In this document: piece by piece, positions 26,770 to 48,280 of the stretch | How the letters are laid out: each line of letters starts with the position of its first letter | Numbering within the stretch: the stretch's first letter is position 1 | Origin: an uncultured Akkermansia sp. | GTDB taxonomy: Bacteria > Verrucomicrobiota > Verrucomicrobiia > Verrucomicrobiales > Akkermansiaceae | Reading direction: 5' to 3' | NCBI GenBank assembly: GCA_947589345.1 | Contig: CANQAC010000002.1 | Span: 41,692 to 105,691 of the forward strand | DNA length: 64,000 bases | Program-made: the position numbers and the translations under genes | The notes under the pieces: model-generated | The model's input: the letters and a program-made list of their open reading frames with translations, nothing else | Databases searched by the model: none | What the model was told of the DNA's origin: nothing

Positions 26770-26949
26770 ATACTCCCATTCCCGAATACTACCGTCCCGT
26801 GGTTATTCTGACGTTGTCGGCTGATTTTTTGTGTCATAATTGTAAAAATTGAGTTGACAGAAACGTTTTGGATAGTAACATGCTTTCACGTGTGCCGCCA
26901 CCCTTGACAAAGCGAGTAGAGGGTGGAGTATACCTACGTCCCTACCATC

Positions 26950-29730
26950 ATGTCATCCAAGAAAAAGCCGACACCGACCAAGGTCGCTAAAAATACGAAG
27001 CAAAGTCCTGCTAAGAAAGGTACGTCAAAACCTACTGCCAAGAAGGCTGTAGGAAAAGTTGCAAGCAGAAACCATGCTGCCAAGGCGATCGCTAAAAAGA
27101 CCACCAAGTCAGGGCTTGGGAAACCAGCTCAACCAAAAACACCCTCGAAATCACAGGCGAAACAAAAACCCTCGACCGTAAAAGCGCCGAATAAAAGACA
27201 GGGCAAACCCACCACAAAGTCCGACGGGAAAAAGGTACAGCCGAAGAAGGGAAAATCTCCGGCAACGAAAAAACCGGTGACTCGCAACATTGTTGCCGCT
27301 AAGCCCACCATCAAAAAAACAGCCAAAAAGACGGCTGCTAAACCTCAACCCAAGAACTTGCCGACGAAAAAACAATCTTCCAAACAAGTCGTCAAAAAAC
27401 CGGCGCTCAAGAAACCAGCTATTAAGTCAAAAAATCTGCCTGCCAAAAAAACGACCACCAAAGGTGACGGCAGAAAATCAACGCCCACGACTTCTGGAAA
27501 GTCAGTCAAAAAACCTGAATTAAGAAAGGCAAAAGTTCCTAAGGCGACACCAAAGCAAGTCTCTTCCCATAAAAAACAAGCGACGTCTGTTGCCAACAAA
27601 CTGACTGACAAGAAAGCAAGCTCTCAAAAGCCAATAAATTCATCAAAATCGGCTACAAGGAAGGATTTGTCAAAACCTTCCGTCCAACACGGCAGTAACA
27701 TGCCTGCCGCAAAAAAGCCAGATACTGCCCAAGCATCTACACTCGGCTCTGAGAAACTTCAGACTGGAAAGGTGAAAATCAAATCGGGCTTGACAACACC
27801 AACCCCCACCGGCAAAAAGAGGGGCCACACCACGGTAAACATCAAGATAACTGCCGCTCTTCTCCAAGAGTATTTCCCCGATGACCTTACCCTGAAGAAT
27901 GCGTTTAAAAATCTTGTCGTCCTCGCCAAAAAGAATGGCGGGTACGTAACCGATGACGACATTATCTCTTCCCTCCCATCTGAAGGATTCGAGGAGCAGG
28001 ACACGGAACGTTTGTTTGAAAGGCTGCACTCCTGTGGCATTGAAGTGCTTGAAGAACCCACGGGGGCCGACTCTCTCACTGCTGATGATCTGAAAGCCCT
28101 TTCCGGTAACATGCACGGTAATCTCATTGAGAATCCCGTGGTGCAAGGACGTCTGCGCCAACTTGTCCTACAGGCCAATGATCAGGGTTTCTTAACCTAC
28201 GACGACATCAATGAAGTGCTTCCGGCGGAAGTTATAGACCCGGAAGATCACGAAAAGATCATGGACTGCCTGCGCAGCATGAACTTCAAAATCATTGATT
28301 CCTCAGAAATGGGAGAAGTGGCGACTCCTGCTCAAGAAGACACACCCCAGGAGCAGGATGAGAGTGAAAAAATGGCCGATTTGGATGATCCGGTGCGCAT
28401 GTATCTCAAACAAATGGGGCAGAAAGAGTTGCTCAAGCGGGAGGAGGAAGTGCAGCTCTCGCGTAAAATTGACCAAGCGGAAACAGCCCTTCAGAGAAGT
28501 CTGCACATGCTCGGTGTCGTTGCCACTTATTACCAGGATCTCGCCATTAAGCTGCTACAAAATAAAGAACGCTTTGACCGCGTCGTCATTGATAAAAATA
28601 TCGACCATCGGGATCAATATTTCCGCACCTTGCAAGCGGCTCTTACCAAACTGCAAGAGCTGTATGAAAATACAAATCTTTCGTACAGTCGCTTGCGTAA
28701 AGCTCGCAAGCGACGCAGAGGCGTAGAAGCGGCTCAGCTGGAGTTTAAATCTTACATTACGAAACTGCATGAACTTTATAAGCGGTTTTCTTTCAAATCA
28801 AAAATTTACGAAGACTTCGTAGAATACCTCAAAGAAATCCGCCAACGTATCCTGAAAACTCGCCGACAGTTGGAGATTCAACCCGACAACCGCGAGTACC
28901 AAGATAACCTCTCCGAGTTGGAGATGCAACTCTGGATGCCTATTGATGATTTCCTAGAGCATTATCAAGTCATGCGCTCGCACATGAAACAGGCAAAGGA
29001 GTCTAAGGGAGAAATGATTGAGGCTAATCTGCGCCTCGTCATATCCATCGCCAAAAAATACACCAATCGTGGTCTCGCTTTCCTAGACCTCATCCAGGAA
29101 GGCAACATGGGACTCATGAAAGCTGTCGAGAAGTTTGAATACCGCCGAGGCTATAAGTTCTCCACTTATGCGACGTGGTGGATTCGCCAAGCCATCACGC
29201 GTTCTATCGCTGATCAGGCGCGTACTATCCGCATCCCTGTGCATATGATTGAGACCATTAACAAGCTCATGCGGGTGCAGAAAAAACTAGTTCAGGATTT
29301 GGGACGTGAACCCACTCCGGAAGAAATCTCCGCCCAGTGCAGCATGTCGGTGGATCGTGTTCGCAGCGTTCTCAAAATGGCTCAGCAGCCTATTTCTATG
29401 CAGCAGCCTGTGGGTGACTCTGACGATACCTCATTCGGAGATTTTCTGGAAGATAAAAGCGCAGAAAATCCCATGGATGGTGCAGCGTTTAATTCCCTGC
29501 GCGAGAAACTCTCTGTGGTACTCAATACGCTCAATGAACGCGAGCGAGCTGTCATTGAACAACGCTTTGGTCTGCGTGATGGTAATCCCCGAACTCTTGA
29601 AGAAGTCGGCCGTCAATTCAATGTGACGCGTGAACGCATTCGACAAATAGAAGCAAAAGCACTTCGAAAGTTGCGCCACCCCTCGCGCATTCAGAAAATT
29701 AAAGGCTTTTTGGATACGACAAATTCCTGA
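26950..29730 (+). CDS. rpoD: RNA polymerase primary sigma factor RpoD with Lys-rich N-terminal extension
   Basis: [73 protein letters not shown]; region 4 [14 protein letters not shown]...[17 protein letters not shown]; start placed at MSSKKKP. Confidence 0.97.
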
Positions 29731-34579: not shown

Positions 34580-35266
34580 TTGATAACTAAAAGAGAAGCA
34601 GACTTGACAACTGAGCATCAGATTTGGTACGCTGGCCGGGTGAAATGGTTGCTACGATTCGCGGCGCTATCAGCGTTGTTTGTGCTGAATTCATGTGCAT
34701 ACATGCAAACGCATAAAAACGTGGAAGAGCTTGGATCATACTATGAAGGGTATGTATTAAACTGTCAAGATCTCCGTGTCTATCATAACCCGACAATAAA
34801 AAAGTGGTACATTAATGCTCATCCTGCCCATCTGAAGTTGCATTATCCAAGCATACACGATTCTGTTTTCCGACGGTCAGATAACCTATCATCTTTCCGG
34901 GAAATTCAGGTCATGCCAGACTTTGTTTATTTCCCCATTAGTGAATCGACTGCTCAAGTTTTACTCAGAAAAGATGGTTATATCCAGATAGAAGTACTTG
35001 CCGATGAAATTCAAAAATCCTTTGGAAGTGTCGTGGAAAAAAACAGTACTCTAAAGTCACATTCTATTCTCGCTCAGATAGATGGCAACAAGTCTTTCCA
35101 AATTTCCTCCGGTATTCGCGTTCCGTCTCAAAAAAATCTCATCAATCAGGTCTTAAGCAAGGTTGACTTGATTCTTGTGGATGTACCGGGTACCCTCGCT
35201 TACAATGTTGCTATTCCTTTCGTTGCGCCTTTTGTTTTCTTCAACAGCTTTCTGAGAGAAAATTAA
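34580..35266 (+). CDS. Hypothetical lipoprotein
   Basis: Signal peptide with lipobox-like LNSC (LLRFAALSALFVLNSCAYM); probable GTG start near 34640. Confidence 0.65.
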   Translation: MITKREADLTTEHQIWYAGRVKWLLRFAALSALFVLNSCAYMQTHKNVEELGSYYEGYVLNCQDLRVYHNPTIKKWYINAHPAHLKLHYPSIHDSVFRRSDNLSSFREIQVMPDFVYFPISESTAQVLLRKDGYIQIEVLADEIQKSFGSVVEKNSTLKSHSILAQIDGNKSFQISSGIRVPSQKNLINQVLSKVDLILVDVPGTLAYNVAIPFVAPFVFFNSFLREN

Positions 35267-35300
35267 ATCTTCATGTCAGTGTTTTGGTTTTCACAATGTG

Positions 35301-35390
35301 TGTGAATAAGTCTGTGAATAAGACGTTGACAAGTGTGAATAAATCGATTTCTTCACGGAAGTTTTTTTGTTATTCTCCTTGTTATCCACA
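35301..35390. other. Candidate replication origin core: DnaA-box cluster
   Basis: TGTGAATAA (reverse complement of TTATTCACA) at 35301-35309, 35313-35321 and 35334-35342, and TTATCCACA at 35382-35390, in an AT-rich intergenic region. Confidence 0.75.
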
Positions 35391-35458
35391 AGACCTATCT
35401 TTTCTAATAATCACATATTACAACGCTCACGAAAGTTACTCACTTTTTCACCACGTAG

Positions 35459-36547
35459 ATGAAGAAGAATGAAAAGATATTTAAAATGATAAACATCGAA
35501 AACCAAAAAGAGGACGTTCAACGTATGAAAGCAGCTTTGCTTTTAGCTGCCAAAGGTGTTGGAACCACGAGTCCTAATCCTCCTGTTGGTGCTGTTTTAT
35601 ATCAAGGTGATCAATTGATTGGTATGGGATACCACGAAAAGGCGGGGGAATCTCATGCTGAGAGGCGCGCCATTCAAAATGCTATAGAACAAGGGTTTGC
35701 AAATAAACTTAAGGATTCTGTTTTATATGTGACTCTCGAACCATGCTCAAGTTATGGAAAAACTCCGCCATGTACTTCTGCCATTTTGGAGGCGGGAATA
35801 GGTCGTGTTGTTTATGGAATGAATGACCCTGATAAACGCCACAGGGGGCGCGCACGCGCCGTTTTAGAGGCCGGAGGAGTAAAAGTACAGTGCGGAGTCT
35901 ATGAGGAAGCTTGCAAGGCTTTTTTAAGACCTTGGGAGTATAGCATAAGAACCGGCTTGCCTTGGGTAACTGCGAAAGTAGCGTGTACATTGGACAGCCG
36001 CATGTCGCGTGGTAAAGAACGATGGATTAGTTGTCCTGAGTCGTTAAAATATGCACATGAACTTCGACTTCAAAGTGATGCAATTTTAACAGGAGGCGTT
36101 ACTGTAAGAACAGACAATCCAGCATTTACCATTCGTGAGCCGCTCAGTAAAATGCCGATTTGTAAGCAGCAGCCTTGGCGTGTGATACTCACCCGAAACC
36201 GCGCTTTACTCCCGAATGATGCGCAAATTTTCACAGATGCGTTTGCAGATCGGACTATAATTTATGAAAAAGTCGAATGTTTGAAAGACGTCCTACGAGA
36301 GTTGAACGAACGTTATGGAGTGATCAGACTCCTTCTGGAATGCGGAGGCAATTTATTGCGCCAATTTTTGGAACAAGGTCTTGTGCAAGAATGGGTTCAA
36401 GATATTGCTCCGATTATAGGCGGTGGCACTAATTTGATGATTCCCGGTAACTTTTTGCCGCGTGAAATCCGCCTGCGTGAAGTCACCGTGCAGCAAGCAG
36501 ATGTCGATTACATTTTGCGTGGTATTTTAGAAGCCTCGGAGGATTGA
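35459..36547 (+). CDS. ribD: Bifunctional diaminohydroxyphosphoribosylaminopyrimidine deaminase/reductase
   Basis: TSPNPPVGAVL, GESHAERRAI, YVTLEPCSSYGKTPPCT, MSRGKERWISCPESLKYAHELR. Confidence 0.94.
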   Translation: MKKNEKIFKMINIENQKEDVQRMKAALLLAAKGVGTTSPNPPVGAVLYQGDQLIGMGYHEKAGESHAERRAIQNAIEQGFANKLKDSVLYVTLEPCSSYGKTPPCTSAILEAGIGRVVYGMNDPDKRHRGRARAVLEAGGVKVQCGVYEEACKAFLRPWEYSIRTGLPWVTAKVACTLDSRMSRGKERWISCPESLKYAHELRLQSDAILTGGVTVRTDNPAFTIREPLSKMPICKQQPWRVILTRNRALLPNDAQIFTDAFADRTIIYEKVECLKDVLRELNERYGVIRLLLECGGNLLRQFLEQGLVQEWVQDIAPIIGGGTNLMIPGNFLPREIRLREVTVQQADVDYILRGILEASED

Positions 36548-46407: not shown

Positions 46408-46423
46408 TGTTCCACGTGGAACA
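46408..46423. promoter_or_regulatory. parS-like ParB-binding palindrome 1
   Basis: Perfect 16-bp palindrome TGTTCCACGTGGAACA. Confidence 0.82.
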
Positions 46424-46461: not shown

Positions 46462-48252
46462 GTGTATAAGGACGGCGCAATGATAACACTACCTGGACAG
46501 ATAGCAAAAAAATTGACTAAGGCTTTGCGTGATGAGTTGGGCGATGCATTGCCGAGAGATTTTTGCGCCACGGTGACGGTGAGTCAGGACTTGCGGTATG
46601 GGGATTATCAGAGTAATGAGGCAATGGTGCTGGCGAAGGTGGCGCGGAGAAATCCACGAGAGTTAGCACAGGCAGTGGTTGCTAAACTGGGAGACATGAC
46701 AGAAGCCGAGGTGAGTTTAGCTGGTCCCGGTTTTATTAATTTTCGTATTAAATCTGAAAAATATGTTGAGTGCTTGATGGACATGCTGAGAGATGAACGT
46801 CTCGGTGTACCATTAGTTGAGTGCCCCCAAAAAATTGTCATTGATTTTTCAGCGCCGAATGTAGCAAAGCCCATGCACGTCGGTCATATTCGTTCCACAA
46901 TCATTGGCGATACACTAGCGCGGCTGGCGCGTTTCATGGGTCATACCGTCATTACTGATAACCACATAGGCGATTGGGGTACCCAATTTGGCATGATTCT
47001 CTGGGGATGGAAAAACTTGGTTGATCAAGCTGCACTGGAGCAACATCCCATAGAGGTTCTCCTCACCACCTACAAGGAGGTAAACAAGCGTTGTAAGGAG
47101 CAGCCGGAGTTGCTTGAAGCATGCAAATCTGAACTTGTGCGCTTGCAGAGCGGCGATCCCGATAATCTGGCTATTTGGAAACGCTGCATTGAGGTTACTA
47201 AAACCGGCTTAAAAAAGATTTATGATCAACTTGACATCCACTTCGACTATTGGCTTGGAGAAAGTTTCTATAATGATGCACTCGCGCCATTGGTGAAGGA
47301 TTTGATGGCACGAGGCATTGCTCGAGAGAGTGAGGGCGCTGTTTGTGTGTTTTCCGACGGGTTTCATGCTCCCCAGGATGATCCTTTCCTCGTGAATAAG
47401 GATGGGGAGTGGCAGCCTGTGCCGGCGATTATTCGTAAGGCAGATGGAGGGTTCTTGTATGCCACCACGGATCTCGCTACACTTGATTACCGAATCCGTG
47501 AGTTCCAAGCAGATTCCATCTGGTATGTTGTCGGGGCGCCGCAGGAAAAACATTTTAAACAGATTTTTGATATTGCCCGAATGCGCGACATTACCGGTGA
47601 TTTCCGTCATGTTGCGTTCGGCTCTATCCTCGGTAAAGACCGGCGCCCATTTAAAACGCGAGATGGAGAAACCGTGAGTCTTCAAGATGTCATTGATGAA
47701 GCGATAGAGCGTGCCGCTCGCGTGGTTCAAGAGAAAAGTCCTGATATGCCGACAGATGAAAAAGATGCTGTGGCAGAAGCGGTCGGCATCGGAGCTATTA
47801 AGTTCGCAGAACTTTCTCAAAACCGTCTTAGCGATTATATCTTTGACTGGGATAAAATGCTTTCCCTTTCCGGAGATACCGCCCCTTACCTTCAAAATTC
47901 CTACGTCCGAGTTCGAGCTATTGAACGCAAGAGCGGAATTCCTGATTTTTCCGTTTTTCTTTCTGACAGAGCTTGTATACGCCTCTCTGAGGACCGTGAA
48001 ATAAATCTCGCACACGCACTTTGCCGCTTCGCGGAGGTGGTGCCGGCCACGCTGGATGACTGTCGCCCCAATTTATTGACGGCTTACCTCTATGACCTTG
48101 CTCGAGCCTTTCATAGTTTTTACGAGGCGTGTCCTGTGTTGCGCAGTGAAGATTCCGTGCGCTTCTCTCGCCTCGCTCTCTGTGAACTCACAGCGCGTGT
48201 CCTTAAGCTTGGCATGAGTTTATTGGGCATCCGCATGCTCGAACGAATGTAA
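46462..48252 (+). CDS. argS: Arginyl-tRNA synthetase
   Basis: DFSAPNVAKPMHVGHIRSTIIGD (HIGH), FGSILGKDRRPFKTRDGE, C-terminal SLLGIRMLERM. Confidence 0.97.
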   Translation: MYKDGAMITLPGQIAKKLTKALRDELGDALPRDFCATVTVSQDLRYGDYQSNEAMVLAKVARRNPRELAQAVVAKLGDMTEAEVSLAGPGFINFRIKSEKYVECLMDMLRDERLGVPLVECPQKIVIDFSAPNVAKPMHVGHIRSTIIGDTLARLARFMGHTVITDNHIGDWGTQFGMILWGWKNLVDQAALEQHPIEVLLTTYKEVNKRCKEQPELLEACKSELVRLQSGDPDNLAIWKRCIEVTKTGLKKIYDQLDIHFDYWLGESFYNDALAPLVKDLMARGIARESEGAVCVFSDGFHAPQDDPFLVNKDGEWQPVPAIIRKADGGFLYATTDLATLDYRIREFQADSIWYVVGAPQEKHFKQIFDIARMRDITGDFRHVAFGSILGKDRRPFKTRDGETVSLQDVIDEAIERAARVVQEKSPDMPTDEKDAVAEAVGIGAIKFAELSQNRLSDYIFDWDKMLSLSGDTAPYLQNSYVRVRAIERKSGIPDFSVFLSDRACIRLSEDREINLAHALCRFAEVVPATLDDCRPNLLTAYLYDLARAFHSFYEACPVLRSEDSVRFSRLALCELTARVLKLGMSLLGIRMLERM

Positions 48253-48254
48253 AT

Positions 48255-48280
48255 GGAATTGTTCCACGTGGAACAATTCC
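48255..48280. promoter_or_regulatory. parS-like ParB-binding palindrome 2
   Basis: Perfect 26-bp palindrome GGAATTGTTCCACGTGGAACAATTCC containing the same 16-mer core. Confidence 0.84.

Follow-up and report, generated by a model that had tools for sequence, protein, structure and literature searches.

The window analysed here, a stretch of 64 kb (G000:C2:41692-105691), comes from an assembly of 2.25 Mb in 102 contigs that is 99.6% complete. The genome is that of an Akkermansia species, with 24 relatives from the same genus, and the nearest named record is an uncultured Akkermansia with a RibD identity of 79%. The gap between a lipoprotein-like gene and the vitamin B2 gene ribD, which an earlier note on this DNA had singled out as a candidate chromosomal origin, carries four perfect DnaA boxes (Table 1). 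All four had been listed in that note, and they proved exact and correctly placed; the gap is also AT-rich, as it had said (A+T = 68%). The three reverse-oriented boxes are spaced by 12 and 21 bp, and two-mismatch boxes at 35349, 35370, 35436 and 35444 lie among and beyond the perfect ones. The last two make up a weak tandem pair, which occupies the place of the strong tandem pair found beside the unwinding element in relatives. The interval originally given for the feature, 35280-35460, holds the array but ends too early on the right, because weak boxes follow the four perfect ones and the least stable 40 bp of the gap extend to 35494.

Table 1. Features at and near the lipoprotein-ribD gap (feature, window position, strand, basis or remark).
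Lipoprotein-like gene, left neighbour	34580..35266	+	without Pfam family
Proposed oriC (DnaA-box array and unwinding element)	35287..35494		box cluster, conserved plan, duplex stability; skew and parS in relatives
DnaA box TTATTCACA	35301..35309	-	exact match
DnaA box TTATTCACA	35313..35321	-	exact match
DnaA box TTATTCACA	35334..35342	-	exact match
DnaA box TTATCCACA	35382..35390	+	exact match
Tandem weak boxes TTACTCACT and TTTTTCACC, two mismatches each	35436..35452	+	alignment; putative binding sites
Proposed DNA unwinding element TAGATGAAGAAGAATGAAAAGATATTTAAAATGATAAACA	35455..35494		least stable 40 bp of the gap; GAT/GAA-repeat element at the aligned place in relatives
ribD, right neighbour (listed frame)	35459..36547	+	Pfam RibD_C and deaminase domains
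parS-like palindrome TGTTCCACGTGGAACA	46408..46423		motif match
parS-like palindrome TGTTCCACGTGGAACA	48260..48275		motif match

The clustering of DnaA boxes is well above chance. The pattern TTATNCACA occurs at 8 sites in the window against 1.73 expected, and none of 100 shuffled windows contained 8 or more. In the whole 2.25 Mb assembly it is found 53 times, as compared with 37 times for a reversed control pattern, and the array in the ribD gap is the only dense box cluster of the genome; no other group of four such sites, even within 10 kb, was found in the assembly. Under random placement, the expected number of clusters of four boxes in 91 bp is about 6e-8.

Directly beyond the array lies a duplex of low stability. 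According to nearest-neighbour energies, 35455-35494 is the least stable 40-bp segment of the gap, and only 0.02% of the 40-mers in the window are as unstable. This segment corresponds to a conserved AT-rich element of the relatives with GAT/GAA repeats, which reads GATGAAGAAGAATGAAAAGATATTTAAAATGATA in the window species and GATGATGATGAATTT or a variant of it in most of the others. The A/T tracts that had been suggested as an unwinding element pointed to part of this segment, but the interval given for the candidate origin stopped at 35460. The listed start of ribD falls within the proposed element. Homology to the RibD proteins of relatives begins at residues 9-22 of the listed frame, mostly at 14-19, and therefore the ATG at 35487 is probably the true start. 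Many relatives (aligned segments from 24 loci; for example L009, L011 and L005) show a GATGATGATGAATTT-type element, an A/T stretch and then an imperfect inverted copy. Arms paired within one species resemble each other more than arms exchanged between species do (permutation p = 0.007, a value confounded by relatedness), and the inverted repeat is not evident in the window species; it was not retained as a general feature of the unwinding element. A riboswitch or other RNA in the gap was also considered and rejected, as no match exceeded its gathering score; the best, to an enterobacterial sRNA, overlaps the lipoprotein gene and reached 26.6 bits against a cut-off of 50.

The gap was compared at 25 Akkermansia loci, those of 24 genomes including the window's own plus one further locus, L078. 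Two to six perfect boxes are found upstream of ribD in 17 of the 25, a single one in L010, L022 (truncated) and L023, and none in L004, L005, L009, L011 and L017. Where fewer than two perfect boxes are present, the aligned positions in most loci hold boxes that are near-consensus or recoded: several one-mismatch boxes are kept in L009, L017 and L004, while L005 and L011 contain a changed word, described below. In most species the alignment reveals a shared plan, which opens with one forward box and a series of three to five reverse boxes at intervals of about 12 bp, and continues with scattered forward boxes, a tandem forward pair, a few bases, GATGATGATGAATTT or a variant, and A/T-rich DNA. 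Both the position and the plan are conserved in close relatives, where missing boxes had been named beforehand as an argument against an origin. Outside the genus, six loci were compared that belong to other families of the order, and in none of them does a perfect box adjoin ribD.

The second argument named beforehand was a skew minimum located elsewhere. GC skew was followed in two relatives that are single contigs, G004 and G015, in sampled 20 kb stretches and then in 1 kb steps. In both, almost all stretches to one side of ribD have negative skew and almost all to the other side positive skew. For G004, ribD lies at 1.238 Mb, the point half a chromosome away from it at 2.83 Mb, and the opposite change between 2.74 and 3.00 Mb; for G015 these positions are 0.425 Mb, 2.17 Mb, and between 2.02 and 2.30 Mb. 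The cumulative minimum of G004, at 1 kb steps, is the very kilobase of the box array (1,238,000), and that of G015 is broad and lies 8 kb to the left of the array, with the sign change at most 10 kb from it. A local minimum at 604 kb in G017 compares with ribD at 604.5 kb, and one at about 32 kb in the draft genome G009 with ribD at 32.4 kb; the contig of G001 has no clear skew minimum. In the window's own genome the skew is visible over 106 kb only, because the assembly is in 102 contigs, and here the bottom is flat from 72 to 88 kb of the contig, with the boxes at 77 kb. The skew therefore switches from negative to positive at or near the locus in G004, G015, G017 and G009, and locally on the window's own contig. 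Since such minima resolve to several kilobases, and those of G015 and of the window's own genome are 7-8 kb from the array, replication might also start within a few kilobases at another sequence, with the array as an accessory part, as in bipartite origins. We regard this as quite improbable: the array, the tandem pair and the A/T element form a complete origin plan that is conserved in the genus, the G004 minimum coincides with the array to the kilobase, and there is no second box cluster nearby.

Sites matching parS point to the same region. In each of the eight genomes checked (G000, which is the window's own, and G001, G003, G004, G009, G013, G015 and G017), the palindrome TGTTCCACGTGGAACA was found at a distance of about 1-15 kb from the locus, so that these motif matches cluster near the gap. 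The two in the window, 11-13 kb to the right of the array, are identical and flank the arginyl-tRNA synthetase gene (46462-48252), one on each side. The gene for the initiator itself is not linked to the locus. As the earlier note had stated, dnaA is absent from the window; it is single-copy in this genome and lies on contig C64, a contig of 9.7 kb that carries no boxes and was for this reason rejected as an origin. In G004, dnaA (at base 422) and the origin are 1.24 Mb apart, and in G015, where dnaA lies at 2.807 Mb, the distance is 1.1 Mb, which bears out the remark that annotation by dnaA adjacency would miss this site. A dnaA-linked origin, a common but not a defining type, is thus absent from G004 and G015, and in the window's genome dnaA is on a different contig. 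The contig of G029 (L117-L135), from another family of the order, begins at dnaA (0.7 kb) and has ribD at 0.88 Mb, but its sampled skew turns from negative to positive at neither gene, in the interval 0.37-0.55 Mb. In G029, too, dnaA is not linked to the origin, and the ribD-side origin has therefore been seen so far only in Akkermansia.

Taken together, the unique box cluster, its conservation across the genus, the skew in relatives and the proximity of parS support the original proposal, and we conclude that the lipoprotein-ribD gap is very probably the origin from which the chromosome of an Akkermansia species is replicated. In the mechanism that we envisage, DnaA encoded elsewhere on the chromosome would bind the reverse-oriented boxes and the forward TTATCCACA, and would then spread across the weak tandem boxes at 35436-35452. 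ATP-DnaA could then open the A/T-rich element, after which the helicase would be loaded and two forks would depart in opposite directions, and the parS sites to the right would let ParB begin segregation. The position of the boxes directly upstream of a gene, together with a promoter-like TTGACA...TACAAT between the A/T element and ribD in some relatives, could also fit a DnaA-regulated promoter or a datA-like titration site, with replication starting elsewhere; this is very improbable, as the skew switches at the locus and nowhere else on that side in the sampled single-contig relatives, parS clusters here, the genome has no other box cluster that could be the origin, and the box array does not include the promoter-like sequence, with neither a promoter nor a terminator found within the window's gap.

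We also compared the box word with the recognition part of DnaA, and a paired change was found in the sister species G001 and G003 (support 100/99), whose gaps are L011 and L005 and whose DnaA proteins are encoded in L105 and L107, respectively. In both gaps the word TTATTCACA is replaced by TTRCTGACA (TT[A/G]CTGACA), while the box positions and the GATGA element are kept. With at most one mismatch, words of this type stand at five aligned box positions in G003 and at three in G001, compared with none or one at the other loci, and 3 of only 5 perfect TTRCTGACA sites in the G003 genome fall in the ribD gap. Helix 5 of DnaA reads GRSHATVLNA in these two species, alone among 24 Akkermansia, against GRDHGTV[I/L]HA; one further species has GRDHSTVLHA. 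In E. coli numbering, assigned by alignment to 1J1V, the changes are D433S, an alanine at 435, and H439N. The other 22 species show no variation at 433 and 439, and all three positions fall within the published base-contacting set, residues 432-435 and 438-439 (PMC5043019). Seven other domain IV positions, 383, 385, 393, 397, 443, 447 and 455, are changed as well.

These sequences make a strong, but correlative, case that the box word and the DnaA recognition helix co-evolved in G001 and G003; it is correlative because a single evolutionary event is involved and other domain IV positions changed too. That the two changes are unrelated drift seems unlikely to us. One event in two sisters could be a coincidence, seven further positions are altered and the boxes of G001 are looser than those of G003; against this, the new word is repeated and concentrated in the gap, the box positions and the GATGA element are retained, and the substituted residues belong to the contact set, two of them being otherwise invariant. 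We therefore favour co-evolution, and it is likely that this lineage underwent a natural switch in initiator-origin specificity, on an origin whose GAT/GAA unwinding element differs from the described DnaA-trio. The paired change is thereby an indirect argument that DnaA reads these sites. In Epsilonproteobacterial DnaA proteins, box preference varies with the residues at the start of helix 5 in domain IV, and the dyad 433-434 was called highly conserved (PMC5043019), whereas G001 and G003 replace D433 itself by serine; also unlike the Epsilonproteobacterial divergence, the box core here goes from TTCACA to CTGACA within one genus. The new word is less frequent in the G003 genome (5 sites) than elsewhere (20-38), but a reading as genome-wide avoidance was not retained, as a reversed control pattern is also low there and composition may explain the difference. 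In G001, L137 (G001:C14) carries three copies of TTGCTGACA at 2019, 3023 and 4065, on the same strand and about 1 kb apart; they lie about 70 kb from the origin and possibly belong to a repeated gene.

Monopartite origins of the E. coli type consist of a box array beside an A/T-rich unwinding element, away from dnaA. The Akkermansia origin resembles E. coli oriC in having an array with an adjacent A/T element and in not being beside dnaA, and differs from it in its position at ribD, its box layout and its GAT/GAA-repeat element. It shares with the BUS origins of B. subtilis and H. pylori tandem boxes, a short spacer, a three-base repeat with periodic adenines and A/T-rich DNA (PMC8287927, PMC8235120). 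However, the DnaA-trio described there is 3'-GAT-5', with 5'-YTD-3' as its complement, whereas in Akkermansia the period-3 adenines sit on the box strand, which reads 5'-GAT/GAA-3'. The BUS trio is defined by at least three NAN trinucleotides at most 16 bp from a box, on the strand running 3' to 5' away from it, with the consensus 3'-GAT-5'. Inspecting the aligned loci by eye, we found that species with GATGATGATG give three 3'-TAC-5' on the opposite strand, that three NAN in a row do not occur on the strand opposite the boxes in the window species, and that the consensus 3'-GAT-5' is absent in both. We thus do not claim that the Akkermansia origin is of the canonical DnaA-trio type.

An approximate origin has been published for one strain of the genus. 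A Hi-C study derived an approximate ori for A. muciniphila YL44 from GC skew and parS; it reports that coverage supported the placement in all twelve of its strains, and notes that ori and dnaA do not always lie together (PMC10197239). Genus and criteria are the same as here; the passages of that text consulted give neither a sequence for the YL44 oriC nor its boxes, unwinding element and flanking genes, and skew and parS suggest that this ori is identical with the ribD locus. The kind of origin is thus known, and what is described here is its anatomy at the level of bases. In the open-licence full-text papers searched, as distinct from the DoriC database itself, we found neither this anatomy, nor the location beside ribD throughout the genus, nor the joint alteration of box and DnaA. 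Akkermansia is a widely studied gut genus, and the open literature searched gave no description of its origin at the sequence level. With an oriC resolved to the base, genomes can be oriented correctly, growth rates estimated from metagenome coverage and plasmids built on the origin. In an Akkermansia genome rotated to dnaA, as the G004 record appears to be, position 1 lies over 1 Mb away from the origin. The paired change in box and helix 5 offers a compact natural system for testing the code by which DnaA recognizes its boxes. Finally, position 26923-29730 (+) of the window encodes a sigma-70-like factor with an RpoD-type C-terminal part and a Lys/Ala/Pro-rich N-terminal extension of about 300 residues; a local AT skew of 0.43 at 27-28 kb is due to this extension.
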